NCBI GenBank assembly: GCA_001247695.2
Contig: LGRX02034770.1
Span: forward strand, 1-64,000
Source of the DNA: Cymbomonas tetramitiformis
Lineage: Eukaryota > Chlorophyta > Pyramimonadophyceae > Pyramimonadales > Pyramimonadaceae
Direction of reading: 5' to 3'
DNA length: 64,000 bases
Position numbers and translations under genes: made by a program. The notes under the pieces were generated by a model. It did no database searches, was not told where the DNA came from, and saw only the letters and a program-made list of their open reading frames with translations. This document shows, one piece after another, positions 46,430-64,000 of this stretch. Within the stretch, counting starts at the first letter, position 1; each line of letters opens with the position of its first letter.

Positions 46430-46794
46430 GCAGTGGCAGTGTCCAGAGTGAAGCCAGCGGGCATCTTGAGACCAGTGGACTTGAGGAATGACAGGAGATC
46501 GCTGCCGTACTGAAAAGCGTAAGCCAGCTGGTCGATGTACTCATCCTCGCGGCCTTCCTCCACGGGCGTGGTCCCCAACACGCCGGGGTCGTTGAAATAG
46601 TCGAAAGCCGTAGGGGCGTCGACCGATGATGTCGGCTTAGACCGCAATGAAGATGTCCCTACAATCCTGCGGCGTCCACGGGACGAAACAGGAGTACTCT
46701 GTGATCCTGAGGGCGAATGTGACGGGGTGGTGGTTACCCGCGTGCGGGCAGCACGCAGAGCCGAACCAAGACCTTCACGTCGGGTAGAGGCCAT
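46430..46794 (-). pseudogene. Gag of TR-GAG 2, N-terminal piece
   Basis: Starts at an ATG at 46,794 (MASTRREGLGSALRAAR) and runs without stops to the LARD 2 insertion point at GFTLDTATAD. YIDQLAYAFQYGSDLLSFL aligns with the TR-GAG 1 segment MDYAFAYGEELAKLL. Confidence 0.85.
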
Positions 46795-47050
46795 TGCGGG
46801 AATAAAATAACGTTTGTCCAGCGGTGAATTTGAGCACACGGGGTGTGCAGCAAAAAAAAAAACGGTGGTAGATGTCGAATAGATGTCGGGAGGCGGCTTA
46901 ATGTCTTGTCGGCCGGTGCTGATGTAAGGCGGTCCGGCGCTGATGTCGGGATGTCGGAGATGTCGAATAGATGTCGGTTAGAGTCGCAGGGCGCATAACG
47001 AACCAGAGAACAAAAACCAAGCTAACACTGAAGGTGCGTGGGCTATAACC

Positions 47051-47285
47051 TTATAGAACAGGAGATATATGACTATATATTGACTGTCACTGTGAAGCAG
47101 AAAAGGCAGTCGTGTCGAGCTGGTGAAGTCTAAAGTTGATAATAACAAATGTTGAGTAGACTTTAGGGTTCGGCAGCCGGTGACACAGTGACACGGACAG
47201 CACTGCAAGTGACAGCCAGGCGAGGGGTGACAGAAAGGTGCACCACTGCCCCCCCCCTATGGGGGGAAAGTTGGCATCTCCGTCA
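47051..47285 (-). repeat. 5' LTR of TR-GAG 2
   Basis: 235 bp, about one difference from the copy at 27,318-27,552. The 240 bp between it and the gag ATG are leader sequence. Confidence 0.9.
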
Positions 47286-47509
47286 CTTTGCCACAACGAG
47301 TAATAATCGGAGGTTTGATTTGGGGTCACCAGTCTGTGCGTTGTGTGGGGTCAAATCAAACAAGTAGAAATGCACATCCAAAAATATACGTAAAGTAATA
47401 CAAGTAATATAGAATCCGAATGAAAGTAGTTCAAAGAGGACATTGTTGGACTAGATAACCTTCAATGCATCATAATGGTCACCCATCACCGCAGCAGACC
47501 CATTGTATG

Positions 47510-48469
47510 CTATGCACACAGGTCGGCGGCATACTGGATATGATTCATACCAAGCACGGAACGCAACCCAAGGCATATGGCCATACACCAGGCCGGTGGT
47601 TTCTTGAGTGTATACATATTGATGTCGGTCTTCGCTTTTCGCCCAGGGCGTGGAGCTTTTGATGCGCTGAATCCCTTAAGCAGCCTCATAGCATCCCGCT
47701 CAGTAGCAATCTCCTCAGGTGCAGTGAGCTCTGCCAACTCGATTATTCCTATATCCCAAGAAGAATTTGTTGTAGAATCACACTGAAGACTGTGTGACGC
47801 ACGCTCACCAGATACTACGATATTGCGTACTTGCTGTCTAGTTAAAGAGCGACCGAAAAGAGAGGAGGTTCCAAACCAAGTTGGAAATGAACTGCGAAGC
47901 GCTGTTGCAGTCCGGGAAAAGTCTTGTCCCCCATCTTCAAAGAAGCATTTTAAGACAGCTTCGCGTTGTTCATTAGTCCGCTTGAGGTATGGCCCACGTT
48001 TACCCCGGCCCACGGTTCGAGGATTGACCGTGGAAAAGGGTTTTCGCCAACCCTTTTTCCGGCCACGCTTTGGCTTGCCCTTAATAAAAGGGCGCACAGA
48101 TGGCTGATCCGAAGCGGTGACAGTAGGTGGCGGATCCGAGATGACACGCGTTCCCGAAACAGCCCACTCGGAACGTCGTGCAGCCGTGGTGGAGATAGTC
48201 GGGAAATAGGAAGAAAGCTTGTTCACCTTCTTTTCATCGTTGCGCGTAGCATTCGTACCAGCGCACATGAATGTATGACAAGCAACAAGAACTTGAGAAA
48301 GAAACGCATGGCTGTTTATGCAGTCCTGCAGTCGCACAAACCCTACACACCGTGTCAATAAACTGAAACCTAATATCTGGAGGAATATTTGTGCAAGCCT
48401 TTCAGTTTCACAGTCGAGTGCAACAGTCGAGTGAGCGAGGCGGAGGGTGCGCAGGGCTGCGGAGCGCAA
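47510..48469 (-). CDS. Unrecognised basic protein, possibly DNA-binding
   Basis: 319 codons; a likelier start is the Met of MCAGTNATRNDEKK near 48,268, with the upstream part possibly intron or leader. The middle is strongly basic (KGKPKRGRKKGWRKP, VGRGKRGPYLKR), with GRKKG resembling an AT-hook. A helix-rich stretch EQREAVLKCFFEDGG...LTRQQVRNIV could be a helix-turn-helix. No domain was firmly recognised. It lies directly outside the TR-GAG 2 duplication. A host exon or a transposon-encoded regulator are both possible. Confidence 0.4.
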   Translation of the reverse strand: MRSAALRTLRLAHSTVALDCETERLAQIFLQILGFSLLTRCVGFVRLQDCINSHAFLSQVLVACHTFMCAGTNATRNDEKKVNKLSSYFPTISTTAARRSEWAVSGTRVISDPPPTVTASDQPSVRPFIKGKPKRGRKKGWRKPFSTVNPRTVGRGKRGPYLKRTNEQREAVLKCFFEDGGQDFSRTATALRSSFPTWFGTSSLFGRSLTRQQVRNIVVSGERASHSLQCDSTTNSSWDIGIIELAELTAPEEIATERDAMRLLKGFSASKAPRPGRKAKTDINMYTLKKPPAWCMAICLGLRSVLGMNHIQYAADLCA

Positions 48470-49150
48470 CGCAGGCCCTCGTGGAGACGATGAGTTCTAG
48501 CACGAACCTGCAGGTTCGGTAGAGAAATAACACTAAATTTATGGGAGAAGTAGAATAAGAAAAGAATCCAGAATCCAGAATCCGAAGCCCAAACCAGTCC
48601 AGTCCAGTTAATAGATAGTTTGAAACACATATAGGGTAGAATATTCTATATATCCGTGTTTTAATACTATCGTTGTACGCAAAAATATGAGGCTCAAACG
48701 GTGATAATATGTCTGTAAAGATATAACATATGAGAGTCTGCGAGTCTAAGTAGCTTATGCTACGTGCGCTGTGTAAGTCTGTACGAGTACGGCTACGGTG
48801 ATGCTCGAGTACTCTAACACGTGGCTCGCAGTCACTATCGCTGTGACTCGCGGTCTCTGTCGCTATGACTCGCGGTCTCGAGCCGAATAATAATGCAGTC
48901 ATCTGTCACATGCATCGAGGAATGTCATACAGGGGGCAGTACGATATATCTAGTCCCCCGTGACACCACCACATTCTGTGGATGTGTGTGGCAGTGGCAT
49001 GATAATGTCAGACAAGCAATATATCATAATACTCAGAAACGGAGCCAGCAGAGATACAGGCATTTGCGTTGGCAAGAACTGGTCCTACTGGTGCCTCCGG
49101 GTCTTTAGAAATAGACATGCTCGCAGAGGCCCACCTTCCCTCGCCTCGGG
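48470..49150. other. Spacer downstream of the copia-like element
   Basis: No gene. The CGAGTC/CTCGAGT-rich stretch at 48,730-48,890 is mildly repetitive. I searched by eye for a 3' LTR matching sequence right of 55,800 and found none. Confidence 0.4.
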
Positions 49151-52100
49151 TCACCCTATAAAGTTCTGCCGCTGCAGTGATGCTAGGACAATCTCATCCT
49201 GTCGTTGCTGTTGTTGTAGTTGTTGCTGCTGGGCATACAGCTTCTGTGCTTCAGCTGCTCGTAGCTTCTCAACCAGCTTAACACGCCGGTCCTTAATATC
49301 CAAGAGGCGGGCAGTGAACTTGTCAATAATGGGAACCCCGTGTTTGGTGATAGGAAGGGCTTTTGTGAAAATGTCAGACTGATTGTCATCAGTCGGAATC
49401 CAGACCGGTGTAAACTTCCTGAGGGGCCCCTGACACCAGTTCCTAACCGCGTGGTACCGAACCGCAATGTGTTTGAGCTTAGAAGAGAGTGCCCGCTGAG
49501 TGACTAGAGTCTAAACTGCTGAGTTATCTACGTTGATGGTGATGGGCTCAGCTGAGGGAAAGAACTCTGTCAGTGTGTTGTAGATGGCCAGGGCGGAGGT
49601 GCAGGCTTCTGACATGGCAACGTACTCTGCCTCTGTAGAGTGAAGGGCAGTGCATGACTTCTGCTTCTTTGACCACCGGTCAATGAGCATACCGTGAAAG
49701 TAGAGACAGTAGCCGGAAACTGAGTTCCGTGTGGCAGTGTCTCCTGCATGGTCTGAGTCACAGAACGCGGTGAGCTGGGGTGCTGCAGGGTCAATAGCCA
49801 TAGCAAGTGACTGTGTAGTCCCTGGTGGAATAGGCATAGTGTAGGATCCGTTTGGCAGCGGTGAGGGCTTCAACTGTGGACTGGTGGCAGAACTGAGCCA
49901 GATATGTGACGTGGTAATATATGTCGGGTCTGACTGTCCTGGCTAACCAGAGCAGAGAGTAGATCAAGGATCTGAGGGGTGTCTCAATGGACCTGTCAAT
50001 GGCATCAGGTGGGGGAATGGGGAGGGAGAGACCCTCTGCCATCGGTGATCGAGGTGGCTGCTTATCCGTGGCTATGCTGAACTTAGCACACAGATCTGTG
50101 ATGCTCCGCTCGTGTGAAAGCTCAATCCTGGTCGGGTATGACTCTCCTGTAGGAAGTGTCTCAGTCTGAACATCAACTCTGAGCTGGAGGAACTGGTTGA
50201 GGACACCAGAGTAGGTGGCCTGGAATGTGGACATGATATCAGTGTGAAAGCGGGCTCTGGACAGCTCATCGGCACAAGCCACAATGAAGTCATCAACGTA
50301 GATGAGGACTATGAAGAGCTGACCGTCAATCCAGCCGATGTACAGGCACTCGTCATATGTGGACCTGCTGAGTGTAGGGTAGCGGTCTGTCATGAATCTG
50401 TGTGCGGTCTCTGACCAGAGTCTGCCTGAGGTCCGATGTCCGTAGAGTGCCTTCTTCATATAGGCACCTACATATCCTTTGGGATGGATGTACCCCTTCG
50501 GAAACCTGACATAGTACCGCTCATCCTCAGGTATTAGAGCCTGGAGGAAAGCCTGAGAGACATCATAGTGGTATGGCATGAGTCTGTGTTTCAGGCAGAG
50601 CGCTAGTAGGAGTCTGAAGGTGGTGAGCTGAGGTGTAGGGGCAAAGGTCTCCGCCTCCTCATAGAAGGTGCGGTCCATGTCTCCTCTGGTGGTGCATCTG
50701 GCCTTGAACTTGTCAAGGGAGCCGTCTGTCAGCTTGTTGAGCTTAAAGACAAACTTACTGGGGAGGACGGTGGAGCCTGGGGAAAAGGCGGTGACTGGAT
50801 CGGCCCTGTCTGGCTGAAGTATGCCGTCAATCTCTGACTGGATGGCTTTGTGCCACTGTCTCCAATTAGGGCTGAGCCGAGCCTGTCCGTATGTGGCAGG
50901 GTCTGGCTCGTCCATGAAGGCATCACTCGGGAAGTCTGCGGGGTCCGAGTCTGCATCCCTGAGGGCAAGGAGCATGGCCTTCTGGTCTGGGGAGATGATG
51001 ACAGCATCGGTGTCTGCATACTGGGTGGAGTGTGAGTCAGCAGAGTCGAAGTACGCCTGGTATCTGTGCTGGACCTGAGGCTTATGGTCTACAGACACGA
51101 TGACTGCAGGGTGATACTTCTGTCGGTCAGCTGGCTTAGCCGAGCACATAGCAAAACACGGGTAAAAGACATTAGGTGCCCCATGTTTGTGTCTGTGCTT
51201 GAGAAAGCTGATGAGAGTGGCATAGTGGCTTTTGGCCAGCTGGAGATAGTGTATGAGCTTTACCCAGACTGGATGTCTGAGTTTAGCACACTGGACCTTG
51301 ACATAGGCAAAGGTCTCTGACTCGTGGGTGCTGCATGCAAGCTCGAGGATGTCGGGGGAGGAGAGGGCTGTGGGGTGTCGGATAGGGTACAGCTTCTTTG
51401 TGAAGATAGCTGTGGAGGCGGGATCAACCAGAGTGTTGTGTGTGTTGGCAAGTGTCTTAGCCATGAGAGCAGGGTCAGTGACAAACGTAGGCCTAGAGAG
51501 AGCCTTGAGTTTTCCTTTCACTGTGGCAAGGCATAGATAGTTGCCAGGTGTGAGATTCCCGACATAGCGGTAGGGCTTGCTCTTAGGCTGTAGCTTAGCC
51601 GAAGTGTCAGCTTTAGCTCCTGCCTTAGAGCGCTGTGCGGGGTCCTGCCAGACATTGCACTCGGACCAGAAGGGCCGGAGCTCGGTGTAGTCGAAGTGAC
51701 GGCCGGTGTATCTGAGGTGAGGTGTGTCCATTCCAATGTGCCTGTTAGGCATAACATTGAGGACTGTGTTAATGGCATGGAGTGCAGCAAGAGGCCATGT
51801 GTACAGCGGGGCATCATATGTGCGCATGGTGCTGTTCATGATCTTCTGCATGTCTCTCCAGAGCACCTCAATCTGAGCCTGGAACTCGTGCATGTATGGC
51901 GGACCGGTCTCATGACGCATGCGGTACTGTCGGAGGAGTGTCTTCATCTCCTCCGATGTGTACTCTGTGGCACAGTCTGTGTGGAAAGTGATGGTCTCTG
52001 GTGTGAAGCCGTGGGACTGAATGTCATCAAGGACAGTCTGGAGGTGGAAGTGTTGGCCTCCCTTAGAAGGTGAGGCATATCCGAAGGCCTTTTTAGTGAC

Positions 52101-53553
52101 GGGGCACTTAAAGGCACTGATGAAGACTGACTCGTCGTAGCCAGGGGGTTTGCATGGGCCCCAAATGTCAGCAAATATGTGCTGAAATGGCTTGGACTGT
52201 TCCCATTTGACAGGCCGGTGGTTGGCTGGCAAAGCCGGAGGTGGTCTGCGGTTGGCTCTGTCAAATACATTAAAGGGTCCTGGGCGCTTGGCATTCCAGG
52301 TGTTGCAATGAGCACATCCGCAGCCTGACAGGATAGTCCTGAGTGTCTTCATGGAGAGGTGTCGTCTGGGCACTGCAAACTGAAGCCCCTGTGAGAAGAG
52401 GTGAGCAATGTACTGGTGTGAGTAGTGGCCCAGACAGGCATGGAGGTACTGATGAGGGTCAATCCTGGGGACTGTGGTGGCATCCTTGAAAAGGATGATG
52501 GTGTCGAACGGAGCCCCCTGGATGAAGACACGGTCAGCACCGCCCTCCTCTCCTGCATCTGTGAGGTCCTGGGGGGAGTAGGTACCAGCTCGAGGGCGGG
52601 AGAAGAAGCCGGGTGTGCCTGCTGGGATGGTGGCTATCTCCTGAAAGTGATAGGTGAGTGGCCACCAGGCTGCAGATGGTGAGTTGGTGACTTCCGAAGA
52701 CACACCGTGTATGAGGTGTTATTAGGGTCTAACCAGAAGTCCTCTAGCATCTTCATCAACATCCTTTGGATGATGGAGTTGATGAAGGGCGGGTTGGCCC
52801 AGAAAGAGCGCCCGCACCAGACATGATCTTCAGCAGGGTCCTCGAGGGAGTAGTAGTGCTGGCACTGTGTGTTACCCCGTGGGTAGGGGATGCCGTCCGT
52901 GTAGAGGTCTGTGTCGCAATAGCCATGTGGACTGTGCTGAGCAAACTCTCTGTAGGCGGACCTAGCAAACATCCAGTCGACTGTGCCCTTCTCTGCAAGC
53001 TCCGAAGGGGCAGGCTGCAGGAGGGGTCTCCTCTGTGCTATGGAGTGGGCAGATGGGGTGGCTCGCCAGCTGCTGGGGTGTACAACATAGTCTCTGCCAG
53101 TGTCATAGAGGTCAAAGAGAGAAGCACCGTGGTGCCATGTGAGGTCGATGAAGTCAGGGGAGCGGGCCCAGTGTCTGAGCATCTGGCGGACTGAGAGGAG
53201 GTTTGGGGCATTTGGATCATAGAAGGCTTGGAGAAAGGGGAGTGTGATCCAAGTGCCGTCGGTGTACTGGAAATCAATGGAGGCTGTGCCGACACTGTGA
53301 GGCTTGTAATGCTGATCCGAGGCTGTGGTCATGCTGGAGGTGCACGGGGACAACTCAGTGAAGAGCTCCCTGTTGTTCAGGAGGAGATGTGAGGCTCCTG
53401 AATCTACAAGGAGGTGTCCGTGCGTGTTGGAGGCACGGCGGCCTTTCCCAAGCAGAGGGAGGAAGACCGGTGTGCCGTGGGGACAGTGCGGGGCACTGTC
53501 GGTGCAGCTGAGGTCTCTCCCCACGGCGCTGCAACCGCAGGGTCGTAGACCTC
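49151..53553 (-). pseudogene. Ty1/copia-type pol polyprotein, decayed
   Basis: Domains in copia order: aspartic protease (HLLVDSGASHLLLNN, ~53,420); GAG-pre-integrase with HHCC zinc site (HACLGHYSHQYIAHL ... CGCAHC); integrase core (HIFADIWGP, FHTDCATEY, then a Glu in AQIEVLWRDMQ); reverse transcriptase (YHYDVSQAFLQALIPEDERY, YVDDFIVAC at ~50,290); RNase H (AFCDSDHAGD, HSTEAEYVAMSEA); and the typical end RALSSKLKHIAVRYHAVRNW ... TDDNQSDIFTKALP with a Gln-rich tail. Placing integrase before reverse transcriptase defines the superfamily. Damage: a frame change near 52,700, another near 49,800, and an in-frame TAG at 49,511-49,513. LTRs were not found, so the element may be old or truncated. Confidence 0.9.
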
Positions 53554-55932
53554 AATGCTGGTCCCAGGGGCCCAAATGGTGGTCATCAAAGACCTCAAAC
53601 TGGGCCCAATCCTCATTAGGGTCGTCGGTGCAATATGAGGGGTGAGTCATGCTGTAGTTCTCCAGGAACTGATTAATGTCTATTCTACTAATTTTTGGGC
53701 GGGTTAACAATACCTAAGAGCGATATTCGAGCACTCTAATATCCACAATAATTCGAGATATCGCATAAAACCCATGCTTGGCAATGTTGATTGTAGTAAG
53801 TTTTGTGTGTGGAAACTTTAATTTCTGCTACTTGGATGGGTGTACCGGGCTGAAATGGCGTTCAAAGTTAGGGCGGGTTGGCCCAAAAATTACGGCGGGT
53901 TAATCCCTAACTTCGTTTATTGTTGCTCCGCGTAGGCTACGTGGTGGTCCCAAGCCACTAAGTGACAATATTTGAAGGAAGTTTTATGTTTTGTGACCTT
54001 AAGTTTCGATATAGAGTACTTCCCTATCGGTATAGACCAATCCTCAGCCCAAAATGTGTGGCGTTCTGCCAACTTTTGGGGGGTAATTTTGAAGGTTGAT
54101 AAACGCCTGTTGTTCCTACTTTTTGCCCGAAGTCGATTACCAATCCTCAGACCAAAGTGTCTGGCGGAGTTCTGCCAACTTTTTTTGGGTAATTTTGAGG
54201 GTTGATACACGCCTGTTGTTCCTACTTTTTGCCCGGAGTCAATTACGCGCGCGATATCGTAGAAATGCCTAGGTATTGGTAACCCGCCGTAACAACGTGT
54301 TACGGCGGGTTAACCCGCCTTTCGCAGAATAGACATTAAGCTGATGGAAGGAGGGAGATGGCATAACTGAGAAATCCCACTGAGAGTGCTCTGGGGAGTG
54401 TGAGCTGTTTGGCCGTGGCCGAGGTGTGTCAGTGCGGATCGAGGTGTCTGCCATGAACTGTTTCCACTTAGTAGTGGTCTCCGAGGTGTCCTCCTGAGAT
54501 TCAGGGATAGGAGGGAAGTGGAAATCCGGTGTGACGGCACAGGCCTGCACTGTGGACGGGACCGGGGGCTGCATGTGTGTGTCTGAGGTAGCAGCCAGCC
54601 GGTCAGTGTCCACCAATGCAGGCAGGGTGCCCGCTGTAGCCCGTGTAGTTGCCCTATCGGCAGTGGGCTGAGCAGGCACCGTACCGTCAGTGTCGGATAC
54701 TGGAGGAGGAGGAGGAGGAGAAGGTGTGTGTTGGGGCGGATAGCCCTCGGTGTCTGACTCGGAGCCTGAGTCGGAGACATCGGCCCACAGGCCAATACTC
54801 TCAATCCCGGGGTATGTACAATCCAAGGGGGCTGGGGAGCTGTCAGGGGCACCGAGTGTAGGCGGTTGCTCGAAGGCCACTGTAGTGTCGGCCTCGAGAG
54901 CTGTGCTGAGGGATGCAGGGGTGTCAGCGGTGGTTGCACCGTCAGTATGGACGGTGTGATCGGTGGGCGTGCCCACAAGCGCCTCATCGGCACTGTGTCC
55001 CAGGGGCGGTGTGGAGGCAGCTGCTGGCTCACAGAGTGTGCTGGGAGCTGCGGTGACACCACCGGAGGGCAAGTGTGGCGTGTGGTTGGCCGGTGCCGTA
55101 GCACTGGCGGAGGCCGGCTGAGGTGAGGCAGTAGCCGGTGCCGTGGCACCACCGAGGGCCGGCTGAGGTGAGGCAGTAGCCGGTGCCGTGGCACCACCGG
55201 AGGCTGGCTGTGTGGAGGCAGTAGTCGGTACCGTGGCACCACCGGAGGCTGGCTGTGTGGAGGCAGTAGCCGGTGCCGTGGCACCACCGGAGGCTGGCTG
55301 AGATGAGGCATTGGCCGGTGCCGTGGCACTGGCAGAGGCCGGCTGTGAGAAGGTGGTAGCCGGCCGAGGTGACATATAGAATGTGTATGTCAGTGTTATG
55401 TGCAAAAGTGTGAGGAGCATAGCAACCGTGAAAGAGAACCAGTGCATGGCAATGGCTACTAGGGTGCGTGTGACCGAGGGAGTGTTACAGCCAGGCTGTG
55501 GTGTGGCGGTGTGTACGGCAGCAGTGTGAACCGGGTCCGTATGCGTGCCCTCCCAATGCATCCCCATCCCAGGCACTGCAATATGGATGCATGCAGTGTC
55601 AGGTGCAATTGTGGTGGCTGGGGGGATACCAATGGCCCGAGGCTCAGGCTGGTGGCAGTCGGGGGGTGGTGATGGTGGTGGGAGGGGAGTGGTGGAGGTG
55701 GGAGGGGTGGTGGCAGTGTCCAGAGTGTCCTCGGAGATGGTGGAGGCCACTGAGGTGCTGCCGGTCAGGAGGTCAGTCAGGTAGGGCACAGGGCACTGGG
55801 TGTTGCAGTCCACGGTGATGTCTGTCTGGACTGGGGCGGTGGCGGTGTTGTTGGCCGAAGCCAGTGACTCCCTAAAGTGCCACCTTTTGATTTTGCTTGT
55901 TCGCCGCGATGGGCACGCTGTTTTGTATCATT
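53554..55932 (-). pseudogene. N-terminal (gag-position) ORF of the copia-like element, split by a MITE
   Basis: The frame is open from about 55,930 to 54,339. After removal of the MITE at 53,674-54,338 it continues in the same frame (FHQ then FLENYSMTHPSYC) to a TGA at about 53,553. Beyond that TGA the protease frame continues directly. No ATG is seen near the 5' end, so the start is lost or non-ATG. The protein is Pro/Thr/Ser-rich, with about seven degenerate repeats around QPASGGATAPATAS (55,080-55,370). It has one hydrophobic helix (FSFTVAMLLTLLHITLTYTF) and no CCHC knuckle or recognisable capsid domain. This is unusual for a copia gag; a surface or linker role is possible but unproven. 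Confidence 0.55.
53674..54338. mobile_element. 665-bp MITE inserted in the copia-like ORF
   Basis: The ends TAATGTCTATTCT and AGAATAGACATTA are perfect 13-bp inverted repeats, and the similarity continues with GGCGGGTTAAC and CAATACCTA. The flanks AACTGAT (53,667-53,673) and AGCTGAT (54,339-54,345) look like a 7-bp target-site duplication with one change. Inside, a ~107-bp segment is tandemly duplicated (54,030-54,245, with CTGTTGTTCCTACTTTTTGC). There is no transposase. Confidence 0.8.
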
Positions 55933-56189
55933 TATGTATTTTAGATTTTCTGAATTTAAAAAGGTGGCAGATTAGGCCATATTCCCATTATCTATATATA
56001 GTCCGTAATATGACCTAATCTGCCACCTTTTGATTTCGCTGTTATGAATCGCGGTTCTATCCATGGGGTATCACCCAGGTTATTTACGGGAAATATTTTT
56101 TATTGTTCACCGCAAATTATGTAGATAATTAATTTTGAATTTCTCTTCCGATATCTTATCATTAATTCTAAAAAATCCCCCCGAAGAAA
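55933..56189. other. Boundary between copia-like element and viral block
   Basis: Contains the palindrome listed next and a partial duplication of GCCACCTTTTGATTT (55,887 and 56,022). This is the left limit of the virus-like genes; no attachment site was recognised. Confidence 0.5.
55957..56031. repeat. Long palindrome, left copy
   Basis: Arms AAGGTGGCAGATTAGGCCAT and complement flank a short A/T loop. The same palindrome occurs at 63,178-63,262. It may act as a transcript-end hairpin, an element terminus or a small insertion. Confidence 0.85.
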
Positions 56190-57352
56190 TTACGGGGCTG
56201 GAAGAACAGGAGTTAACTTCAAGAAAAATCTAATAACATCGGTGTTAAAATCTTGATACAAAGAAGAAATACTAAGCTCCAAATCATTCTCCTCAAGTAA
56301 ATTTGAAGATGCAACTAATGTATCTTTCTGTGCTTCTGTTGTAAAGATACCTAAACCTTCACAATTTAAAATATACTTGTCTATAATATTCTCATTCACA
56401 GCTGTATCAGCGTGTTGAATTTTGAAATTAGCTACTGGAGAACCGGTTTCAGATCCTGCTAACTGAAATTCACACAATACACCAAAAGTATTTGAAGGGA
56501 ATGTCAATATTCGAGTTGTACCTTGACCAGCTGTACAGTAATCACTCACCTTTAAGAAAACCAGAGATTTGGGGTCAGCCAGCTAATTCCACCAACTTGC
56601 GTACCCCCCCCCGCCAGCGCCAGCGTCCTATGGAATCGGTAAGAATTAGCAAGTATTTTCTTTCAATCAGCCAGCAATTCTCTTAAAAGTCCAATGATAA
56701 ACACTTAAAAAGGCGACATTTTCAAAATTTTCCGCCTGCGGCGCCAGCACCCATATTTCTTATTTTCGAGAATTCCATAGCTCAAAAAAACCAGCCAGCT
56801 TTTCTCGACAACTTCCCCAAAAGCTGGCTGGTTTCTTATCGCCGGGTTTTCTTAAAGGTGAGTGATTACTGTAGGTTGTATTCTAGGAAAATTAGACATA
56901 TCAAGATTTTCATATTGTAAAGTTTTTGTTGTTAACTTATTGCAATCTATATCATTACAACCTATGATATCACCTAACATGTTAATTCTAAAAAATTGAT
57001 TTGATGGTATAACAGGTCGTTTACGAAACTCCAAAGCATACACTGAATTAACTTCTGATAATTCAACCAGTGATGTATTCAAATCTATAAATGTTGAACC
57101 AGCAGATTTTGACCCTTGTAATTCTAAATTTGTCTCGGAACTTAATTGTGCAACGTTGACAATTCCACCATTGATTCTTGCATTTCCATCTACTTCTAAA
57201 CCGGAAATTTTTACACTTGCTCCAGCGGTTGCCGGTTCCAAAACATTATTTGTTTCGGTCCATTTTGAACTTTGTACAGGATTATATGTTTGACCATTAA
57301 CGGTATCACATGTTAAATTCTTACAAACTAAACTTTGTCCAAAACTTGACAT
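56190..57352 (-). pseudogene. Virion fibre-like protein with MSSFG tag, interrupted by a MITE
   Basis: Read across the insertion at 56,536-56,871, the gene is a single 274-residue frame; as it stands it is cut into a 166-codon N-terminal part and a 3' part. It begins MSSFGQSLVCKNLTCDTVNG, sharing the tag and the LTCDTV phrase with the 640-residue neighbour. Repeated short beta-like phrases (VKISGLEVDGNARINGGIV, TNLELQGSK, FFRINMLGDIIGCNDIDCNK) suggest a fibrous trimer shaft. Role by analogy: surface fibre. Upstream GATAT just before the ATG fits the block's TATA-like start. It is the last gene of the block and was inactivated after integration. Confidence 0.7.
56536..56871. mobile_element. 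336-bp mariner-type MITE in the viral fibre gene
   Basis: The terminal inverted repeats begin CAGTAATCACTCACC, and 27 bp are perfect on both sides. Both ends are flanked by TA (56,534-56,535 and 56,872-56,873). A CAGT start with TA duplication is the hallmark of Tc1/mariner-type elements. It contains a further hairpin (AAACCAGCCAGCTTTT and complement, 56,785-56,835) and no coding capacity. Excision leaving one TA restores the frame of the surrounding gene. Confidence 0.85.
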
Positions 57353-57365
57353 ATATCATATGTAC

Positions 57366-57905
57366 CTATTTAAATTTCACGCGGTATCGTTTAAAGTGTT
57401 TTATATGTGATATACCTAACAATCCTATAGCGTTAGGATAAACCAATACCGAGCCTTCTGTTACTTCACCGGTCGCTGGTAATATTAAAGGAACGTCGGA
57501 ATATTGTGTTGTGGCAACCGAACCGCCTATACCGGTAGCACGTTGTGGTTGATTATGATAATCGGACGTACCGTCTGGTTTAATTATTCCTATAAGTCTG
57601 GCATCTGCTGTGCTCATTTGGGTGGACGTAGCCCCTGTATCATATATTAAAATGACGTTTGCACCGGTCCCACCCTCTAATGATACGTTCACCCTAGATT
57701 GACGTTGATTTGTTTTTGCTTTTGTTTTTGGTAAGTTCTGTTTACTATATCTAACTACGTTTCCTTGGGCGTTAGCAATATTTCTTACCTTGCATCGAGT
57801 GTTTGCGAGTCTTCCATTTATAATTCCTTTAATTCTCATACCGACACCATCTTGAACGACGGTTTCACAACTTGGTAAATTAGGATTATTTTGCTTTACA
57901 GGCAT
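57366..57905 (-). CDS. Retropepsin-like aspartic protease of the viral block
   Basis: 179 residues. The active-site motif is visible in VILIYDTGATSTQMSTADA (hydrophobic-DTGA-T). The second conserved element of retropepsins is AIGLLGISHIKHF (compare ILGMDFL-type motifs), with a flap-like glycine region between (ATGIGGSVATT). About 80 basic N-terminal residues (KQNLPKTKAKTNQRQSR) precede the domain. It likely works as a dimer, since only one Asp motif is present. It lies 11 nt downstream of the long fibre gene and upstream of the interrupted one, in a run of structural genes. A role in capsid or fibre maturation is therefore plausible but inferred. There is no link to the copia protease: sequence and context differ. 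Confidence 0.7.
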   Translation of the reverse strand: MPVKQNNPNLPSCETVVQDGVGMRIKGIINGRLANTRCKVRNIANAQGNVVRYSKQNLPKTKAKTNQRQSRVNVSLEGGTGANVILIYDTGATSTQMSTADARLIGIIKPDGTSDYHNQPQRATGIGGSVATTQYSDVPLILPATGEVTEGSVLVYPNAIGLLGISHIKHFKRYRVKFK

Positions 57906-57916
57906 TTACAATATAT

Positions 57917-59839
57917 TTACAATTTAAATGACGGTTGTAAATAACATATAACTGCATTTGGCGATGCATGAGTTACGGTTTCCATACAGCACCCGATTAC
58001 ACCATTAGTCGCCGCAACTGCTGCTGAATTTACAACACCGTTTGCTTGAGCTCCTAAAAGCTGGCCCTTGGTGTACGAACCATCAATACAGTTAACAGAA
58101 CAGAAACCGCTAATAAGTACAAAACAAGAATTACCTGCAAGACTATCTTGGACACATACACCTATAACACCGACATTGGTATTAGTAGCTGTGTTTGTTG
58201 CTGCATAGGGTTTGATACCATTGATGTTAGTGCTTACATCGTCAAAAGAAAGAACAGTTCCTGATGTTATTGTAGAAGCTGTTGTGTTTACCATCGTATA
58301 CACTTGGCCTATGAATGTGTTTGGTGATGTAGTCTTCCTATAAGCACTTGTGAGTTGGGTTAATGGAATACCATCAGTCGTTATCGAAGATGTGTCTGGT
58401 GTTGTGTAAGCCCAATCAATGCTGTTCGTGATTCTTATGGCCGTCGTATCCAAATCTGAAGTGAGGTTGATTGAACCACCGGTATTTCCGACAGCAAGGA
58501 CCTGTGATAAACTTGGAACACCGCCGCCACTAGAAACAGGACCATATCGGACCTCATTGGATGCTGTGTCATAATGCAACATTTGTGACTCGCTTGCTGG
58601 GTCGGGAGACAATCTTATAGGTCTGATATAGCAACTACTTGCGACACCGGCATTCAATTCAATTCCGCTTGCGTTCAAAACAATTGTGTTATCTGTGTTT
58701 ACCGCACTTTGAGTAGAGTTTTGTCCTGCCAAAGCACCTAGGTTTATGGAATTCTCACCGCAAGCAAATTCCCCAGAGAAATATCCAATATTCACTGCTT
58801 TATCTTTGCAGTTAACCTGACCGCTATCGTCACCGATTGCCACAACAAATGAACCGCAGTTATTGTTACCTGCACCAGAACCAATAGCAATCGTATCATT
58901 ACTGGTTGTATTATTGATGGACAATGCATTCCTACCTATAGCGATAGAACGGTCTCCAATGTGGTCGGCGTTTGTATACCCTTGAGTCTGCTCTCCTATT
59001 GATACTTTACCTAAACCGCCAGAGCCACTTTCAATTCTAAGATTATTTCCACCGAGTTTCTCTTGATTGACAATCATTGTACCGGTACCTGTGTATGAAA
59101 CATCAACTACGTCGCTTGTAGCACCTCGGGTAGTCACATCTTGGAGTGTAGATGTATCAGGTTGGACGGGGAGATTTATTAAACCTGAGCCATCACCGAC
59201 AAATGCAGATGCACTGATACTATTTGTCGTCGTGCTACCTTGGTCGGTGACCGATTGTAGATTCTGATTTGCACCAGAAGGTAAGTTTGTCAAAAGGCTT
59301 CCATCTCCGCGATATTTGCCTGCAGTCAATGTGATATCACCGCTGTTGAGCACGAGTGGACCGTCGTTGATTAATAGACCACTGCCGAATGGCTCTATAT
59401 TGATTGTCGTTTGCATACATGCAATTTCATTAATACCGGTTTCCCCAATTGAGACTCGTGTTTGTTCAACAGGGTCTAAGCTTTTAATCTCGAAAGAAGC
59501 ATCGAGGTCATCGAGACCTGCTGAAAATCGTGATTTGGAAACCGGGTTGTTCAACACGAAGTCGTTGAATTTGATTGATGTGTGTACTTTTAGCGACCCA
59601 TCTGTCAACAAGGACATTTGTTCTCGTTCATTCAATGGGTCTTGAGTATCTATGAATTTGATATCGTTCTGGTAGCGTATGTCCGAACCGATATGCATCG
59701 TCTCTAACGGCGAGTCTACGCTGCCTATAGTTTGGCACACAACTGTATCGCACGTTAGTGTATCGGTTGTCCCTGGGGCTGCTACATAGTCTTTGCCGTT
59801 AATTTTTTCAACTATTAGATTTGAACCGAAAGCTGACAT
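57917..59839 (-). CDS. Long fibre/adhesin-like virion protein with MSAFG tag
   Basis: 640 residues. The N-terminus MSAFGSNLIVEKINGKDY is shared in pattern with two other genes. The body is beta-rich and repetitive. FVGDGSGLINLP and GDGSLLTNLP are of the type seen in phage and algal-virus tail fibres. SIAIGRNALSI, DTIAIGSGAGNNN and FVVAIGDDSGQ resemble the left-handed roll of trimeric adhesin heads (YadA-like AIG repeats). The C-terminal third (from about residue 420) is a separate globular region rich in Ser/Thr and ends in AVICYLQPSFKL, which could be a receptor-binding or trimerisation domain. It starts right after a TATATA tract. The gene is intact. Confidence 0.75.
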   Translation of the reverse strand: MSAFGSNLIVEKINGKDYVAAPGTTDTLTCDTVVCQTIGSVDSPLETMHIGSDIRYQNDIKFIDTQDPLNEREQMSLLTDGSLKVHTSIKFNDFVLNNPVSKSRFSAGLDDLDASFEIKSLDPVEQTRVSIGETGINEIACMQTTINIEPFGSGLLINDGPLVLNSGDITLTAGKYRGDGSLLTNLPSGANQNLQSVTDQGSTTTNSISASAFVGDGSGLINLPVQPDTSTLQDVTTRGATSDVVDVSYTGTGTMIVNQEKLGGNNLRIESGSGGLGKVSIGEQTQGYTNADHIGDRSIAIGRNALSINNTTSNDTIAIGSGAGNNNCGSFVVAIGDDSGQVNCKDKAVNIGYFSGEFACGENSINLGALAGQNSTQSAVNTDNTIVLNASGIELNAGVASSCYIRPIRLSPDPASESQMLHYDTASNEVRYGPVSSGGGVPSLSQVLAVGNTGGSINLTSDLDTTAIRITNSIDWAYTTPDTSSITTDGIPLTQLTSAYRKTTSPNTFIGQVYTMVNTTASTITSGTVLSFDDVSTNINGIKPYAATNTATNTNVGVIGVCVQDSLAGNSCFVLISGFCSVNCIDGSYTKGQLLGAQANGVVNSAAVAATNGVIGCCMETVTHASPNAVICYLQPSFKL

Positions 59840-59864
59840 TATATATTATATGCTTTTTAATAAT

Positions 59865-60230
59865 TTACGGTGGAGTGTCTACAATTTTCATAAAAATTTG
59901 TGCAGGTGTATTGGCAGCAGTAGCTCTGTAACCGTACAACTCATTGTCTGTTACATTTATAGGAGGTGTATTTGTTGGACCTGTGACAATTGGCAACCCA
60001 CCTATTCTAAATTTGCTTAGTTTGCCCGCCATGTTGAACTCTGCAATACCGGGGTCGCCGCTCTGACTTGCATCGAAATCTAAGGTAACTTCAGTTCCTA
60101 ACAAATTGAAATTAGTTCTTGCTTGGGGTACAGCCCCATTTTTACCATCACGACCGATGGTCATTCCTCGACCAGCGAAATTATCTGCATTGACTTTTGA
60201 TGCATTTAGTTCATTACCAAATGAGCTCAT
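59865..60230 (-). CDS. Small MSSFG-tagged virion protein
   Basis: 121 residues starting MSSFGNELNASKVNADNF, then GRGMTIGRDGKNG and a compact beta-like C-terminal half ending IFMKIVDTPP. The tag and the following N-K-[VI]-N pattern match the start of the 640-residue fibre. It looks like a short member of the same family carrying a different head. Its start codon follows TATATATA directly. Confidence 0.65.
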   Translation of the reverse strand: MSSFGNELNASKVNADNFAGRGMTIGRDGKNGAVPQARTNFNLLGTEVTLDFDASQSGDPGIAEFNMAGKLSKFRIGGLPIVTGPTNTPPINVTDNELYGYRATAANTPAQIFMKIVDTPP

Positions 60231-60245
60231 TATATATATAATAGA

Positions 60246-60566
60246 TTATGAAAAAAACAGAGGAACCGGTTTCAACAACCGACTATTCAATGGATGTTCC
60301 ATCGGGAAATGGAACATTTCCATTTCTTTTGACACTTTTTGATTGTGCCCTAAAGTATAAGATTTGTATCCAGCCAGAGGATGAACGTTGCTAATCCTAA
60401 ATGGTGGATATGTGATGTCATTGATTGTTTTACACGGGAGTTGTTGCATCATAACCGGTCTAAAACCTGACATTTGAAACATCGTCGCGGTATGAATCTG
60501 TTTGTCCACGTTGGGTCCTACATCTTTTATCATGTTGTAACTGCTTAATCCTGGCTGTTGAGCCAT
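60246..60566 (-). CDS. Unrecognised 106-residue viral ORF
   Basis: Gly/Pro/Met-containing protein starting MAQQPGLSSYNMIKDVGPNV and ending LLKPVPLFFS. No signal peptide or membrane helix. Spaced 15 nt from the next gene and 23 nt from the capsid candidate, so it is very likely a co-expressed structural or accessory virion component. No family was recognised. Confidence 0.6.
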   Translation of the reverse strand: MAQQPGLSSYNMIKDVGPNVDKQIHTATMFQMSGFRPVMMQQLPCKTINDITYPPFRISNVHPLAGYKSYTLGHNQKVSKEMEMFHFPMEHPLNSRLLKPVPLFFS

Positions 60567-60589
60567 GTTTGTATACTATTAACCGCTTT

Positions 60590-61924
60590 TTAAAATACAG
60601 TTTCGATCACACGGTTTTGACCGATACGAAGAACTGCGGTCGTTTCGCAAATAATCATGGTTTCGTTTGTTGTAAGTACCGTTTGTAGCGGGTCTACTGG
60701 TGATGCAATAGAAGTTTGATAGTACATTGAACTTGATAATCCTCTGCTATCTAAACCAGTTAAATTTCTTACACCCATTTCTGAGGGAAGATTCAAACGT
60801 ACCATAGGAATGAACTGATTATTGAGCCAATCTTCATAACTGTTAATCTTACAACCCGATAGCATACCGTAGTTGTCCGCTTTAGAGATAGTCAGCAGAT
60901 TGAATGCTGCAAGAGGGTCGACTCGATAGTTAGGCACAAACAAGTTGTTGATATTGAACTGTAGAGCACCCAATCCACCTGCTGAAAACTGAAAGTATGA
61001 GGGTAGGTAGGCTGTTCCACATGTATTTGCCAATTTGATAAGTCCTTTGTTTTTTTCTCTATAATCACTAGGCCTTTGCACAGCATATATGTTATTAATG
61101 CATTGTGAACTCAAAGAGAACCTTGTCGATTTGGCCATACCACCAGCTCCTTCGAAAAATGTAAAATAATTGAGGTAAGGAATTTCCAAGAATCCATCAC
61201 GCAATTTTGATTCCACCGCTGCGTCGTAGACCCCTGAACTAAACGTGATCGTCTCAACGGTAAAGTAAAGTTTGTCCAATTTAAAATTGCCTTTCGATAC
61301 TAATTCTTCTTGAGCTTTCGTGTCAATTTCAAAACCAGGTGTTTTTGTTTTTTGCCAACACCCGAGGACTTCTGGACCTGCAAGGTATAGCCTTATCTGG
61401 ATCGGTGGGCAACAGCTGGTATCAATGTATGAAGGTTCAGCTTCACCCAAAAACGTTAGCCATTGATTCAAAATATATGGACGAGGTGTGCTGTAAAAGC
61501 CCTCGGCTACAGAGATTTCTTGATTCTTAAGAACCCTTTGATAAGTCATTTCTTTGCTAAGAGTGGTTTTGATAGTATCAAGTACGCAACTGACCGTGTT
61601 GTAGGATTGAAAACCAGTGGTCAACTGCTGCCCTCCGGCGAATATTTCCATTCTTTGAATCAGTTTCTCGATGCCATTGGGGAGCGTCGTATGTAATTCA
61701 TCAGCAACATCTCCGTCGTTTTGAAATGCTAAAGGCGTTGTACATGAACCTAAACAATGCATGGCTAAACTCTTCATGTTTACAATTGAATTAACGGGTA
61801 AATTTAGTGTAATAGTACTATACCTTGATGCTTCGGTAAGATTAGTAGTCTCTAATCTGAAGTAATTAGTTGAATATGAATTCATTTTCGATAAGCCGTA
61901 AGCAAGACTCATTGGCAGACTCAT
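60590..61924 (-). CDS. Candidate major capsid protein (jelly-roll type)
   Basis: 444 residues. The segment IEKLIQRMEIFAGGQQLTTG followed by YN resembles the first-jelly-roll signature of double-jelly-roll capsid proteins, in which a hydrophobic strand ending in GG is followed by a polar turn and a Tyr. Polar beta-strands recur through the sequence (STITLNLPVNSIV, IQIRLYLAGPEV, KLYFTVETITF, MIICETTAVLRIG). There is no signal peptide. Its central position next to the penton candidate supports the role. Length is at the short end for polinton-like virus capsid proteins, so a minor capsid role remains possible. An A/T-only tract (TATAATATATATAC) precedes the ATG. Confidence 0.5.
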   Translation of the reverse strand: MSLPMSLAYGLSKMNSYSTNYFRLETTNLTEASRYSTITLNLPVNSIVNMKSLAMHCLGSCTTPLAFQNDGDVADELHTTLPNGIEKLIQRMEIFAGGQQLTTGFQSYNTVSCVLDTIKTTLSKEMTYQRVLKNQEISVAEGFYSTPRPYILNQWLTFLGEAEPSYIDTSCCPPIQIRLYLAGPEVLGCWQKTKTPGFEIDTKAQEELVSKGNFKLDKLYFTVETITFSSGVYDAAVESKLRDGFLEIPYLNYFTFFEGAGGMAKSTRFSLSSQCINNIYAVQRPSDYREKNKGLIKLANTCGTAYLPSYFQFSAGGLGALQFNINNLFVPNYRVDPLAAFNLLTISKADNYGMLSGCKINSYEDWLNNQFIPMVRLNLPSEMGVRNLTGLDSRGLSSSMYYQTSIASPVDPLQTVLTTNETMIICETTAVLRIGQNRVIETVF

Positions 61925-61950
61925 TTTTGTATATATATTATAAAGATATA

Positions 61951-62964
61951 TTATAAAATATCTGAGAGACCAGCAGGTGCCAATTCTTCAACTTTAATAC
62001 TTAAAGAATAATTGATAGAACCGTCTGACGCTTGAGTCGGAGATGCCAATGTGATTAATCTTGCTTTGGAATCTGTAAGTGTGATTCTAAATGAAGTAAA
62101 TTGAGACCCAGACACTTCAATAACAAAGTTGTCGTTTGGGTCTATATATCGTATGAAGTCTGTCGTTGTGTCACTAGGCAATAGTATTTTCGCCCAGATA
62201 TCAGAACTAATCATTTCATTACTATTGGTGAAGGTAGAAAGATTGGTTGATTCAATATTGTGTGTTGGTAACGATGTTATCCTAAGGTACAATGCATCGT
62301 TGGTTTGAATGTTGCAAGGGTATATTGAATCTCTTTGTTCAGGTGATGAATTATTTGAATCAAACAAGTCTAAGAGGTCAGACACTTTACTCATACCTGC
62401 CGTACTACGGTTAACACGGCCACCGAGTACTTGGTCGGAATCGTTGTATTTGCCTGCTCTGGAAACTGAGGTATTTAAGGCAATGTCTAAAGGAGACCCA
62501 GGTATTGCGTTGAAATCACCGCTAACGCTAAATGCTACGAGTTTGATAGTGGGCTGAGCTGGTGTTAATGTTATACGAAATTTGTTTTCGAAATTTTGAA
62601 CATTTCCGCTTCCGCCATCGTAAGTGACGGTTACTGAATTGATGATTGTTGTGGCACCGATGGCCTTCATTAATTCAGTCTCTAACAAAGATGTAATTTG
62701 ACTTAATTCTGTATAATTTGCATAACGTATTTGCACTTCCGTTAAAGTTTCATCTTCCGTATCACCCACATAGAAGATGCCATTGGTCTCGTTGATACTA
62801 TACCATGTCTTTGCACATGAGAAAGTATTCAAAGTTAATCTCAATTTTGTTTGTGCTCTGTAATTTATCAGTTGAGTGGGTATGTTCATTTGCAAAACAC
62901 GTGCGTCTCCATTGCTATTGTCTTCGGAAGACAAGAATAGTGTTCTTGTGCTAATTACGCTCAT
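61951..62964 (-). CDS. Candidate penton/minor capsid protein
   Basis: 337 residues. The start SVISTRTLFLSSEDNSNG, then LRLTLNTFSCAKTWYSINE and NGIFYVGD, follows a pattern of minor capsid/penton proteins of small eukaryotic dsDNA viruses. There, an N-terminal arm with a short Ser/Asp-rich strand leads to a jelly-roll whose early strand contains W/F-Y-x-I-N and N-x-F. The C-terminal half is beta-rich (NFVIEVSGSQFTSFRITLTD, GSINYSLSIKVEEL). It overlaps the preceding 70-codon gene by 14 nt. The call rests on pattern and position. Confidence 0.45.
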   Translation of the reverse strand: MSVISTRTLFLSSEDNSNGDARVLQMNIPTQLINYRAQTKLRLTLNTFSCAKTWYSINETNGIFYVGDTEDETLTEVQIRYANYTELSQITSLLETELMKAIGATTIINSVTVTYDGGSGNVQNFENKFRITLTPAQPTIKLVAFSVSGDFNAIPGSPLDIALNTSVSRAGKYNDSDQVLGGRVNRSTAGMSKVSDLLDLFDSNNSSPEQRDSIYPCNIQTNDALYLRITSLPTHNIESTNLSTFTNSNEMISSDIWAKILLPSDTTTDFIRYIDPNDNFVIEVSGSQFTSFRITLTDSKARLITLASPTQASDGSINYSLSIKVEELAPAGLSDIL

Positions 62965-63163
62965 CTATATTAATATAACAATTATCTTTTATAGAATCAA
63001 CAGTATCCCGCTCTAAAGGAATTGGTTCTTCAATGTTTCCAGTACAAAGGTCATCGTAAAATTCTGGACGTTTGATATAATCATCTACAAGCAATTCTAC
63101 ATGAGCTTCTTTAATATCGGGGTATTGAAGGTTGGCTAAGCGTATCAATTCTTGACGGTCCAT
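62951..63163 (-). CDS. Small acidic viral ORF overlapping the penton candidate
   Basis: 70 residues, starting MDRQELIRLANLQYPDIKEA, mostly helical and acidic. It ends inside the start of the downstream gene (14-nt overlap), which suggests coupled expression. No family was recognised. Confidence 0.6.
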   Translation of the reverse strand: MDRQELIRLANLQYPDIKEAHVELLVDDYIKRPEFYDDLCTGNIEEPIPLERDTVDSIKDNCYINIDERN

Positions 63164-63177
63164 CTTATTATCATATA

Positions 63178-63262
63178 AATCAAAAAAGGTGGCAGATTAG
63201 GTCATATTCCCATTATCTTATACATAACCATAATATGACCTAATCTGCCACCTTTTTTGATT
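63178..63262. repeat. Long palindrome, right copy
   Basis: 31-bp arms (AATCAAAAAAGGTGGCAGAT onward) flank a short A/T loop. The sequence is the same as the palindrome at 55,957-56,031. The stop codon and last five codons of the lipase-like ORF lie within its right arm. It therefore sits exactly at a gene end, as would a hairpin marking transcript 3' ends. Confidence 0.85.
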
Positions 63263-64000
63263 CTTCAAACAACTCCTTGTCTTGGTCAGCACGACCCGTG
63301 GCTTGACGTATCATCTCCGTGATTGGGTCATAGACCGGCACTTCCGTTAACGGTTTTTGTTCTATAGGATTCAGTCCCAATTTTCCACGTATATAATTCT
63401 TCTCACCTAAGCTTTCTTTGACACCCATAACATTCATGAAATCTGTGAAATTCACATTGGGAGTTTCTGATAGTAAGATTGGTTCTAATAAACCTTGAGT
63501 GGTCCTAAAGATACGTTCGTCGTTGGTGTCAGTCGGTGTGTAATATCCAAGGTACCCTCCCACAGCCGAACCTGTCATGGCGTTGGCAAAGCCGTAACGA
63601 GACCTCGCTGTACTAACCCGCGTAGACTCCGGTGCATCTGAGTACATCTGTTCCACGCTATGTAATTTTGTCAAATCGTTTTCCGTACCTACCTTTGGAT
63701 TGACGTGCACGATATCGTAATTGCTTTTAGCATGTGGTTTCAACCGGGCTGGTAATGACACTAAATCGCCTTCTGTTGAGTACAACACCTGCTTTTCCGT
63801 AGGAGTGTTCATCGGTTCTTGCATAGGATTGATTGCTGGGTTGAAATGATGCCCTTCTACGTTGTTAACTTCGGCTATATAATTGCTTTGACCACCTCCA
63901 TTAGAGTGACCAGTCACAGATAACTTATACCCACCGTATTTACTTTTGACATCGTCAAATCGTTGTTGTGCTTCTTGATATCTTGATGTACTACGTTGTT
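63240..64000 (-). CDS. Lipase-like alpha/beta-hydrolase ORF, 5' end beyond the window
   Basis: The frame is open from its TAG at 63,240 to the right edge (253 codons seen). GTG at 63,917 is an internal Val, not the start. The strand-elbow motif YKLSVTGHSNGGG, with GxSxGG around the presumed nucleophile Ser, is typical of class 3-like lipases, and the preceding KSKYGG with a helical DDVK segment fits. The following ~200 residues are Asn/Thr/Pro-rich and lack an obvious Asp/His pair. They include VGGYLGYYTPTD and a Glu-rich end EESKKVAD. Such hydrolases in virions could attack host membrane lipids on entry; that role is inferred. It reads toward the rest of the viral block. Confidence 0.6.
   Translation of the reverse strand, partial: QRSTSRYQEAQQRFDDVKSKYGGYKLSVTGHSNGGGQSNYIAEVNNVEGHHFNPAINPMQEPMNTPTEKQVLYSTEGDLVSLPARLKPHAKSNYDIVHVNPKVGTENDLTKLHSVEQMYSDAPESTRVSTARSRYGFANAMTGSAVGGYLGYYTPTDTNDERIFRTTQGLLEPILLSETPNVNFTDFMNVMGVKESLGEKNYIRGKLGLNPIEQKPLTEVPVYDPITEMIRQATGRADQDKELFEESKKVAD

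Follow-up and report, generated by a model that had tools for sequence, protein, structure and literature searches.

We analysed a 64,000-nucleotide stretch of contig LGRX02034770.1, hereafter the window, and found that its right-hand part is very probably one end, carrying the virion genes, of an inactivated endogenous polinton-like virus (PLV), which is the best explanation overall for the block of genes located there. The left end of this element occupies window positions 55,958-64,000, with nine open reading frames (ORFs) on the minus strand at 56,190-64,000 (Table 1). A preliminary description made from the sequence alone had proposed an endogenous PLV, and this reading was supported by a double-jelly-roll capsid model and by hallmark genes found when the locus was extended. 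It had also counted nine collinear genes on one strand; the nine ORFs are present as stated, but they correspond to eight genes, because a 336-bp miniature inverted-repeat transposable element (MITE), which we take to be Tc1/mariner-like, splits one fibre-like gene into ORFs of 119 and 166 amino acids (aa). As one joint claim, it is highly likely that the host is Cymbomonas tetramitiformis and that the element is of its Gezel-like PLVA/PLVB kind.

The block is A/T-rich, as had been described, with a GC content of 0.394 across 55,958-64,000 versus 0.526 across the neighbouring 45,001-55,800. Six ORFs, of 640, 444, 337, 252, 179 and 166 aa (the 252-aa ORF being cut by the window edge), exceed the longest ATG-initiated ORF of 144 aa obtained in 200 mononucleotide shuffles of the same strand. 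Repeats do occur at the edges of the block, where the preliminary description had placed its boundaries, but these are ~75-bp palindromes with further copies inside the element, and they do not mark its ends.

Capsid and spike proteins

The 444-aa protein was aligned with 39 database relatives and modelled (predicted local distance difference test, pLDDT, 84; predicted template-modelling score, pTM, 0.86). The best matches of the model in the PDB were the double-jelly-roll capsid proteins of Paramecium bursaria chlorella virus 1 (PBCV-1; E 2e-15) and Singapore grouper iridovirus (E 1e-14), followed by those of faustovirus and vaccinia D13; among the 50 best PDB matches listed, query-normalised TM-scores were 0.53-0.66. 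Structure prediction had been set in advance as the check on the capsid and penton calls. By this model the 444-aa protein is a double-jelly-roll major capsid protein (MCP), from which a linear double-stranded DNA (dsDNA) virus would build its capsid, whereas the penton call for the adjacent 337-aa protein was not confirmed. The MCP has close relatives in metagenomes, at 86% identity; scans of IMG/VR with the MCP, its alignment and two relatives gave no match, and PHROGs gave none at E 0.001 or better.

Two proteins weigh against the virus reading. For the 337-aa protein, of which 119 copies were scored among 1,607 candidate places in the genome, a profile search of the PDB gave no match, and the model, built from 8 close sequences, reached a pLDDT of only 32; the penton label comes from its position beside the MCP and is unproven. 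The second is a 310-aa ATPase-like protein encoded to the right of the window, which has an AKRGTGKS motif and an AAFFDD stretch and gave neither a packaging-ATPase Pfam match nor a PDB match; the packaging ATPase expected here would be of what we take to be the A32/FtsK kind.

Three putative spike or fibre proteins begin with a common MS(S/A)FG..L sequence and diverge beyond it. The first, of 276 aa, is the gene split in the window copy and is open in two other copies, on contigs C24865 and C3694. The second is the 640-aa protein, whose orthologue (L015) matched Chlorovi_GP_rpt (E 2e-4) and, over residues 511-626, PF09956 (Phage_cement_2, presumably the former DUF2190; E 0.046), both below the cut-off. 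The third is the 121-aa protein, whose place is taken in C3694 by an unrelated-looking protein of 148 aa that starts with the tag as well. Adenovirus fibres offer an analogy, and the shared start is probably a tag through which the three proteins would dock at the capsid vertex. The lipase, which scored above the PF01764 (Lipase_3) cut-off for the longer frame and below it for the window part alone, may aid entry.

Table 1. Features of the polinton-like element within the window.
Feature	Position	Strand	Remarks
P2-class palindrome, broken left end	55958..56031		half copy near 55,880; terminus motif not found in window
Fibre-like gene, 3' piece, 119-aa ORF	56190..56549	-	74% identity to residues 165-276 of the 276-aa C3694 protein
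MITE, 336 bp	56536..56871		TA duplication, 27-bp inverted ends; site empty in C24865 and C3694
Fibre-like gene, 5' piece, 166-aa ORF, N-terminus MSSFG	56852..57352	-	70% identity to residues 1-163 of the 276-aa protein
Retropepsin-like aspartic protease, 179 aa	57366..57905	-	DTG active site; activity predicted
Spike/cement-like protein, 640 aa, N-terminus MSAFG	57917..59839	-	C-terminus DUF2190/Phage_cement_2-like
Small spike-like protein, 121 aa, N-terminus MSSFG	59865..60230	-	no family match
Conserved 106-aa protein	60246..60566	-	97-99% identity in 8/8 other copies; no family match
Major capsid protein, double jelly roll (by model), 444 aa	60590..61924	-	structure model and PDB matches
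Minor capsid (penton) candidate, 337 aa	61951..62964	-	adjoins MCP; conserved
P2-class palindrome upstream of capsid operon	63183..63257		recurs inside element
Class-3 lipase gene, 3' part	63240..64000	-	gene runs on to contig base 64,589

The rest of the element and its decay

The contig runs to base 91,809, and viral genes extend to the right of the window, as had been anticipated from the block reaching position 64,000. The remainder of the lipase gene, a 189-aa protein, an rve integrase, an N6-methylase-like ORF scoring below the cut-off and coiled-coil-like ORFs are found there, and further right lie a primase-helicase, a C5-methylase-like ORF (E 0.012, below the cut-off) and the ATPase-like ORF. 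The integrase matched PF00665 at E 2e-7, its 31.4 bits falling just short of the 32.6-bit cut-off, and has the triad D105-D176-E212, with a D-E spacing of 35; such a DD35E integrase would insert the viral genome and generate 6-bp duplications. The primase-helicase is of the UL9 type and matches the herpesvirus origin-binding protein family PF02399 above its cut-off; in the window copy it is broken into three frames, and these splits could be assembly errors. Hallmark genes, which the preliminary description had proposed to seek in this direction, are represented by the integrase, the UL9-type helicase and the lipase, by an ATPase recognised from its motif only, and by a DNA polymerase B (PolB) in relatives.

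Copies of the element fall into two classes, K and W, the window copy belonging to W. Beyond the ATPase comes a 141-bp end that shares 98.6% identity with the right-hand end of C7916, a W copy of greater length; this places the right terminus of the window copy at contig base 75,936, outside the window. At the left, the terminus has been lost: a half palindrome near 55,880 is followed by GC-rich DNA of a Copia-type element, and no long terminal repeat (LTR) was found at this junction. The window copy retains about 20 kb, versus the roughly 25-26 kb that longer W copies span between terminal palindromes. In C7916 a PolB gene, whose product shares 80% identity with the C24865 PolB, follows the ATPase before the right end is reached; this stretch of about 5.6 kb is missing from the window copy. 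With the MITE in its fibre gene, a split helicase, the left end lost and the PolB stretch missing, the window copy is inactivated.

We considered a one-off inversion of the right half and rejected it, because C18263 has the same arrangement of integrase and N6-methylase genes. Moreover, of the 25 other contigs listed for both a capsid and a W-type helicase gene, 22 have the two genes in the same divergent arrangement, 8.6-9.7 kb apart (exceptions C2901, C18535 and C4717).

Coiled-coil ORFs lie inside elements (L009:4525-6356; L016:5787-8345), and the L009 DNA is GC-richer, at 0.47-0.52. The L009 ORFs had no family match, no similarity was found between the set on the window contig and that of C3694, and these ORFs are possibly captured cargo genes.

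A retropepsin-like protease in the capsid block

A protease gene of 179 aa lies inside the capsid block in all nine copies fetched, one of them with a stop. The features of retropepsins (the DTG active site, the GxGG flap and the LLG segment) occur together in one domain of about 100 residues, and the DTG was invariant across ten aligned sequences, namely seven of the nine copies and three database relatives. A profile search matched the protease of human immunodeficiency virus 1 (HIV-1) over the flap and LLG segment, at E 1e-4 for tethered dimers and 0.046 or worse for single chains, and that of feline immunodeficiency virus (FIV) over most of the domain, at E 0.065 or worse; the same search also yields unrelated chains, such as endoplasmin, at E ~0.1. 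One relative, P0043, reaches the cut-offs of both PF13650 and PF13975. The invariant DTG and the HIV-1 match bear out the earlier protease call. A cysteine protease of the Ulp1/adenovirus type had no Pfam match in the proteins scanned, with some small ORFs of some copies lying outside that scan.

Our tentative proposal, to which we give slightly less than an even chance, is that the predicted enzyme would mature the virion or cleave its spike proteins. Weighing against it are single-sequence Pfam scores below the cut-off (E 0.001) and the finding of only five database relatives, with no known substrate. The protease could instead be a domesticated retroelement fragment, or process a non-virion target such as a host protein or PolB, and so not be a maturation enzyme; this too we regard as possible, short of an even chance. 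Retroelements with related protease domains adjoin the element (RVP_2, E 9e-11, L010), and invariant positions are more frequent in the basic N-terminal 65 residues (46 of 65) than in the protease part (34 of 114), so the N-terminal part may matter more. The ratio of nonsynonymous to synonymous substitution (dN/dS), which was 0.29-0.32 for the window protease against seven copies, is above that of the capsid; the value of 0.76 against C18263 was obtained at a dS of 0.016, too small to weigh. Two observations argue against this alternative, namely that the gene is complete and stands alone in the capsid block of every copy fetched, and that the DTG is kept in relatives at 46-65% identity.

A role in virion maturation would set these elements apart from most described PLVs. 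None of the PLVs treated in the accessible sections of PMC4642659 encodes a maturation protease, and those of PMC7805220 describe PLVs to date as having none, yet report a cysteine protease in Gosseviruses, which also appears in the corresponding parts of PMC10120064; Polintons use a Ulp1 cysteine protease, according to the available text of PMC11071308. Since most PLVs, Gosseviruses excepted, are described in this way, a retropepsin in the capsid operon makes virion maturation testable. In the open-access literature we found no report that pairs polinton or double-jelly-roll viruses with an aspartic protease or retropepsin, the one match concerning other viruses.

Copies across the genome and exchange of modules

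We searched 851.7 Mb of the genome in 25,745 contigs. The best 95 of 1,762 candidate MCP places were scored, and these encode proteins 94-100% identical to the window MCP at full or nearly full length; 93 of these 95 genes, a sample biased towards the best candidates, had no stop. The K-class terminus motif gave 503 matches (256 and 247 by strand) and the homologous W-class motif 422 (201 and 221), with none for the reversed control in either case. Among the first 100 of the 422 W matches, 12 convergent same-contig pairs spanned 18.6-35.2 kb, six of them 25.1-26.2 kb. Terminal inverted repeats are present in C24865 (89.6% identity over 584 columns) and C3694 (99.8% over 539 bp), the window copy retaining the right end only, and 6-bp target duplications flank both of the elements read at both ends, which are K copies.

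The K gene order, as read in C24865, begins with the fibre, protease, 640-aa, small, 106-aa, MCP, 337-aa, lipase, 189-aa, integrase and PolB genes; the ATPase lies on the opposite strand, followed by a 165-aa SET-like protein (E 0.014, below the cut-off; L014:918-1415), the primase-helicase and an N6-methylase-like gene. PolB of the relatives matched PF03175 at E 1.5e-37, and the C24865 protein (1,290 aa; L013:4896-8768) carries the motifs DFNSMYP, KDMQNILYG and YFDTDS. The 17.2-kb C3694 element (C3694:9917-27137) has near-identical ends and a 6-bp duplication, while integrase, PolB and ATPase were not found in it by tblastn; it was apparently mobilised in trans.

Median dN/dS was 0.10 for both MCP (26 pairs) and integrase (6 pairs), 0.26 for the 337-aa protein (33 pairs) and 0.325 for the protease (20 pairs), values that indicate purifying selection on the virion genes. 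Divergence differed strongly among the genes of a single pair of copies: between the window copy and C24865, dS was 0.055 for MCP, 1.08 for integrase and 0.71 for protease. Six K copies have MCPs with 98-99% identity to the window MCP, and a seventh, C6, has one with 96%. These comparisons show that modules have been exchanged between element classes.

These data also bear on whether the element is a capsid-bearing DNA transposon (Polinton/Maverick) whose spread is confined to the genome, with no virion stage. As in Polintons, there are an integrase, PolB, terminal repeats and 6-bp duplications; element copies number in the hundreds, and the near-identical ends of C3694, with its missing genes, suggest that copies can be mobilised in trans. 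We nevertheless regard a transposon without virions as unlikely, given the purifying selection on virion genes (MCP dN/dS ~0.1), the preservation of nearly all best-scoring capsid genes, the swapping of spike, lipase and capsid genes between classes, and the close metagenome relatives.

Palindromes at transcription-unit starts and termini

At least three classes of palindrome were distinguished, namely P1 (about 65 bp, in K copies), P2 (75 bp, the class of the window) and P3. Single representatives form strong predicted hairpins (z -6.2, -13.2 and -4.7, respectively), and the terminal palindromes gave -6.0 and -3.3. In K copies, palindromes were found upstream of the capsid operon (6/7), the integrase operon (5/5) and the primase-helicase (6/6), between PolB and ATPase (5/5), and at the 3' end of the helicase (5/5); for the last position the C16064 site depends on one listing, and the C24865 site also starts the 165-aa gene. 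Each C24865 terminal repeat holds three. In W, the window contig and C7916 show palindromes ahead of the capsid operon and of the C5-methylase, in the gaps integrase/N6-methylase, coiled-coil ORFs/helicase and ATPase/PolB, and, three of them, near the right end. Nearly every transcription unit examined has a palindrome ahead of it. P2 precedes the capsid operon in 13 of 13 further W copies, as well as in the window copy and C18263.

When palindromes were compared, with W represented by the window copy and C18263 only, identity was 0.74 between different junctions of one element (34 pairs) and 0.82 for the same junction within a class (52 pairs), versus 0.43 for the same junction (34 pairs) and 0.436 for different junctions (98 pairs) across classes. 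A promoter or operator function for the palindromes that precede transcription units is, in our view, moderately probable. Two observations weigh against this: no P1 was seen ahead of the C6 capsid operon, and four W copies (C2758, C17733, C4535 and C16334) have P3 before the helicase and P2 before the capsid operon. From the latter it follows that one element need not carry one class. A uniform class per element, which holds for the window copy (7/7 sites) and the P1 copies read, fails in these four and in C18263, which has P3 at the element end and P2 inside.

Alternatively, the palindromes might terminate transcription or serve as hairpins in RNA processing. Mimivirus transcripts end at hairpins, the palindromes here form strong ones (z -4.7 to -13.2), and several also follow gene 3' ends. 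They sit, however, between divergently transcribed genes, where there is no gene end, and none was found at the three convergent junctions inspected, one copy each; termination therefore appears improbable to us. Less probable again is that they serve as origin-type sites to which the UL9-like primase-helicase of the element binds. In favour of this, the helicase resembles the origin-binding protein of herpesviruses (PF02399, E 2e-26; PDB, E 2e-10), and the layout of the palindromes, with dyad arms flanking an A/T-rich centre, is also that of herpesvirus origins. We examined the regions upstream of 20 helicases (14 picked from 105 scored to span the range of identity, plus the window copy and five K copies), each of which matched one class: nine P2, six P3 and five P1. 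Helicases 94% identical to that of the window have P3 upstream and 76%-identical ones have P2, so that helicase identity does not predict the class, and binding by this helicase is disfavoured.

At the termini of both element classes lies a palindrome of about 113-116 bp whose perfect arms measure at least 16 bp (L012:3315-3430; L010:2324-2436; L031:4932-5044). These could form terminal hairpins, which would be unusual for a genome thought to replicate by protein priming. That the 113-bp palindrome is a solo MITE was rejected, because it is homologous to the terminus of the other class and ends the longer W copy.

Comparison with known elements

The element type is already published; the retropepsin in the virion operon and the palindromes at transcription-unit starts and termini were not found described in the papers searched. 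The accessible sections of Gyaltshen et al. 2023 (PMC10675990) report a C. tetramitiformis genome of 914.3 Mb in 35,945 scaffolds with 178 PLVA and 1,340 PLVB capsid genes. They place heliorhodopsin on 51 scaffolds, and in our search it matched 49 contigs (60 matches, versus 0 of 14 control genomes), which supports the same host; the size and contig number of the two assemblies differ, which weighs against it. These Gezel-like (PgVV-like) PLVs are likewise endogenous, A/T-richer than their flanks and present in many capsid copies, and have pPolB, a DDE integrase, terminal inverted repeats and lengths of 19.5-29.5 kb (PMC10675990). They also have a DUF2190-like long ORF, to which the weakly DUF2190-like 640-aa protein may correspond. 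The rve integrase of the window copy and the PolB of its relatives, deleted in the window copy itself, fit this polymerase and recombinase set, and our elements are probably the very same as those published. A PLV protease, palindromes and target-site duplications are unmentioned in those sections. The term 'palindrom' is absent from the main text, as available, of PMC12220804, PMC10120064, PMC4642659, PMC11071308, PMC12721341 and PMC10675990.

Polintons/Mavericks share with these elements an rve integrase, PolB (here in relatives), terminal repeats, 6-bp duplications and a double-jelly-roll capsid, but have a Ulp1-type cysteine protease where the elements here have a retropepsin-like one; the elements here also carry a PLV-type gene complement that includes a lipase and a UL9-like primase-helicase. 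Among other small capsid-bearing endogenous elements, Gossevirus-group PLVs and Maveriviricetes virophages too encode a protease close to their capsid genes, although theirs is of the cysteine type in the available parts of PMC7805220, PMC10120064 and PMC8547959. Retropepsins of HIV-1, FIV and LTR retrotransposons have the same DTG, GxGG flap and LLG segment; unlike them, the protease here is a stand-alone gene in a dsDNA-virus capsid operon and has a conserved basic N-terminal region.

In Cafeteria endogenous mavirus-like elements (EMALEs), as presented in the accessible portions of PMC8547959, the motif type likewise varies with element type and recurs in several intergenic regions, whereas the motif here is a long palindrome that is also repeated in the termini. 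EMALE promoter motifs are type-specific and thought to reflect different giant viruses (PMC8547959), and an integrated giant virus is reported in the alga in the available text of PMC10675990; by analogy, a link between palindrome classes and giant viruses is possible. The palindrome classes offer a handle on the activation of endogenous PLVs and on the movement of capsid modules between classes. A broader scenario, which we offer as speculative and rather doubtful, is that this lineage uses a retropepsin, perhaps from an LTR retroelement, as its maturation enzyme instead of the cysteine protease of Polintons and virophages, and that a few interchangeable dyad operators drive its transcription units, which would let capsid modules move between classes that each keep an operator of their own.

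Neighbouring DNA

The GC-rich retroelement noted nearby is of the Copia type and adjoins the virus end (window 49791-53524, minus strand; RVT_2 E 6e-23, rve E 1e-8, and Pol_BBD). Its ORF at 52634-53524 has a weak Dam methylase match (E 3e-4, below the cut-off). Elsewhere on the minus strand of the window we found a Mutator-like transposase (23402-25015; PF20700, E 2.6e-41) and a C-terminal piece of a RecQ helicase (19725-20318; Helicase_C, E 8e-18, and RecQ_Zn_bind). A second A/T-rich stretch at 29001-36000, with a GC content of 0.35-0.43 and no listed ORF of at least 180 aa, is possibly another decayed element.

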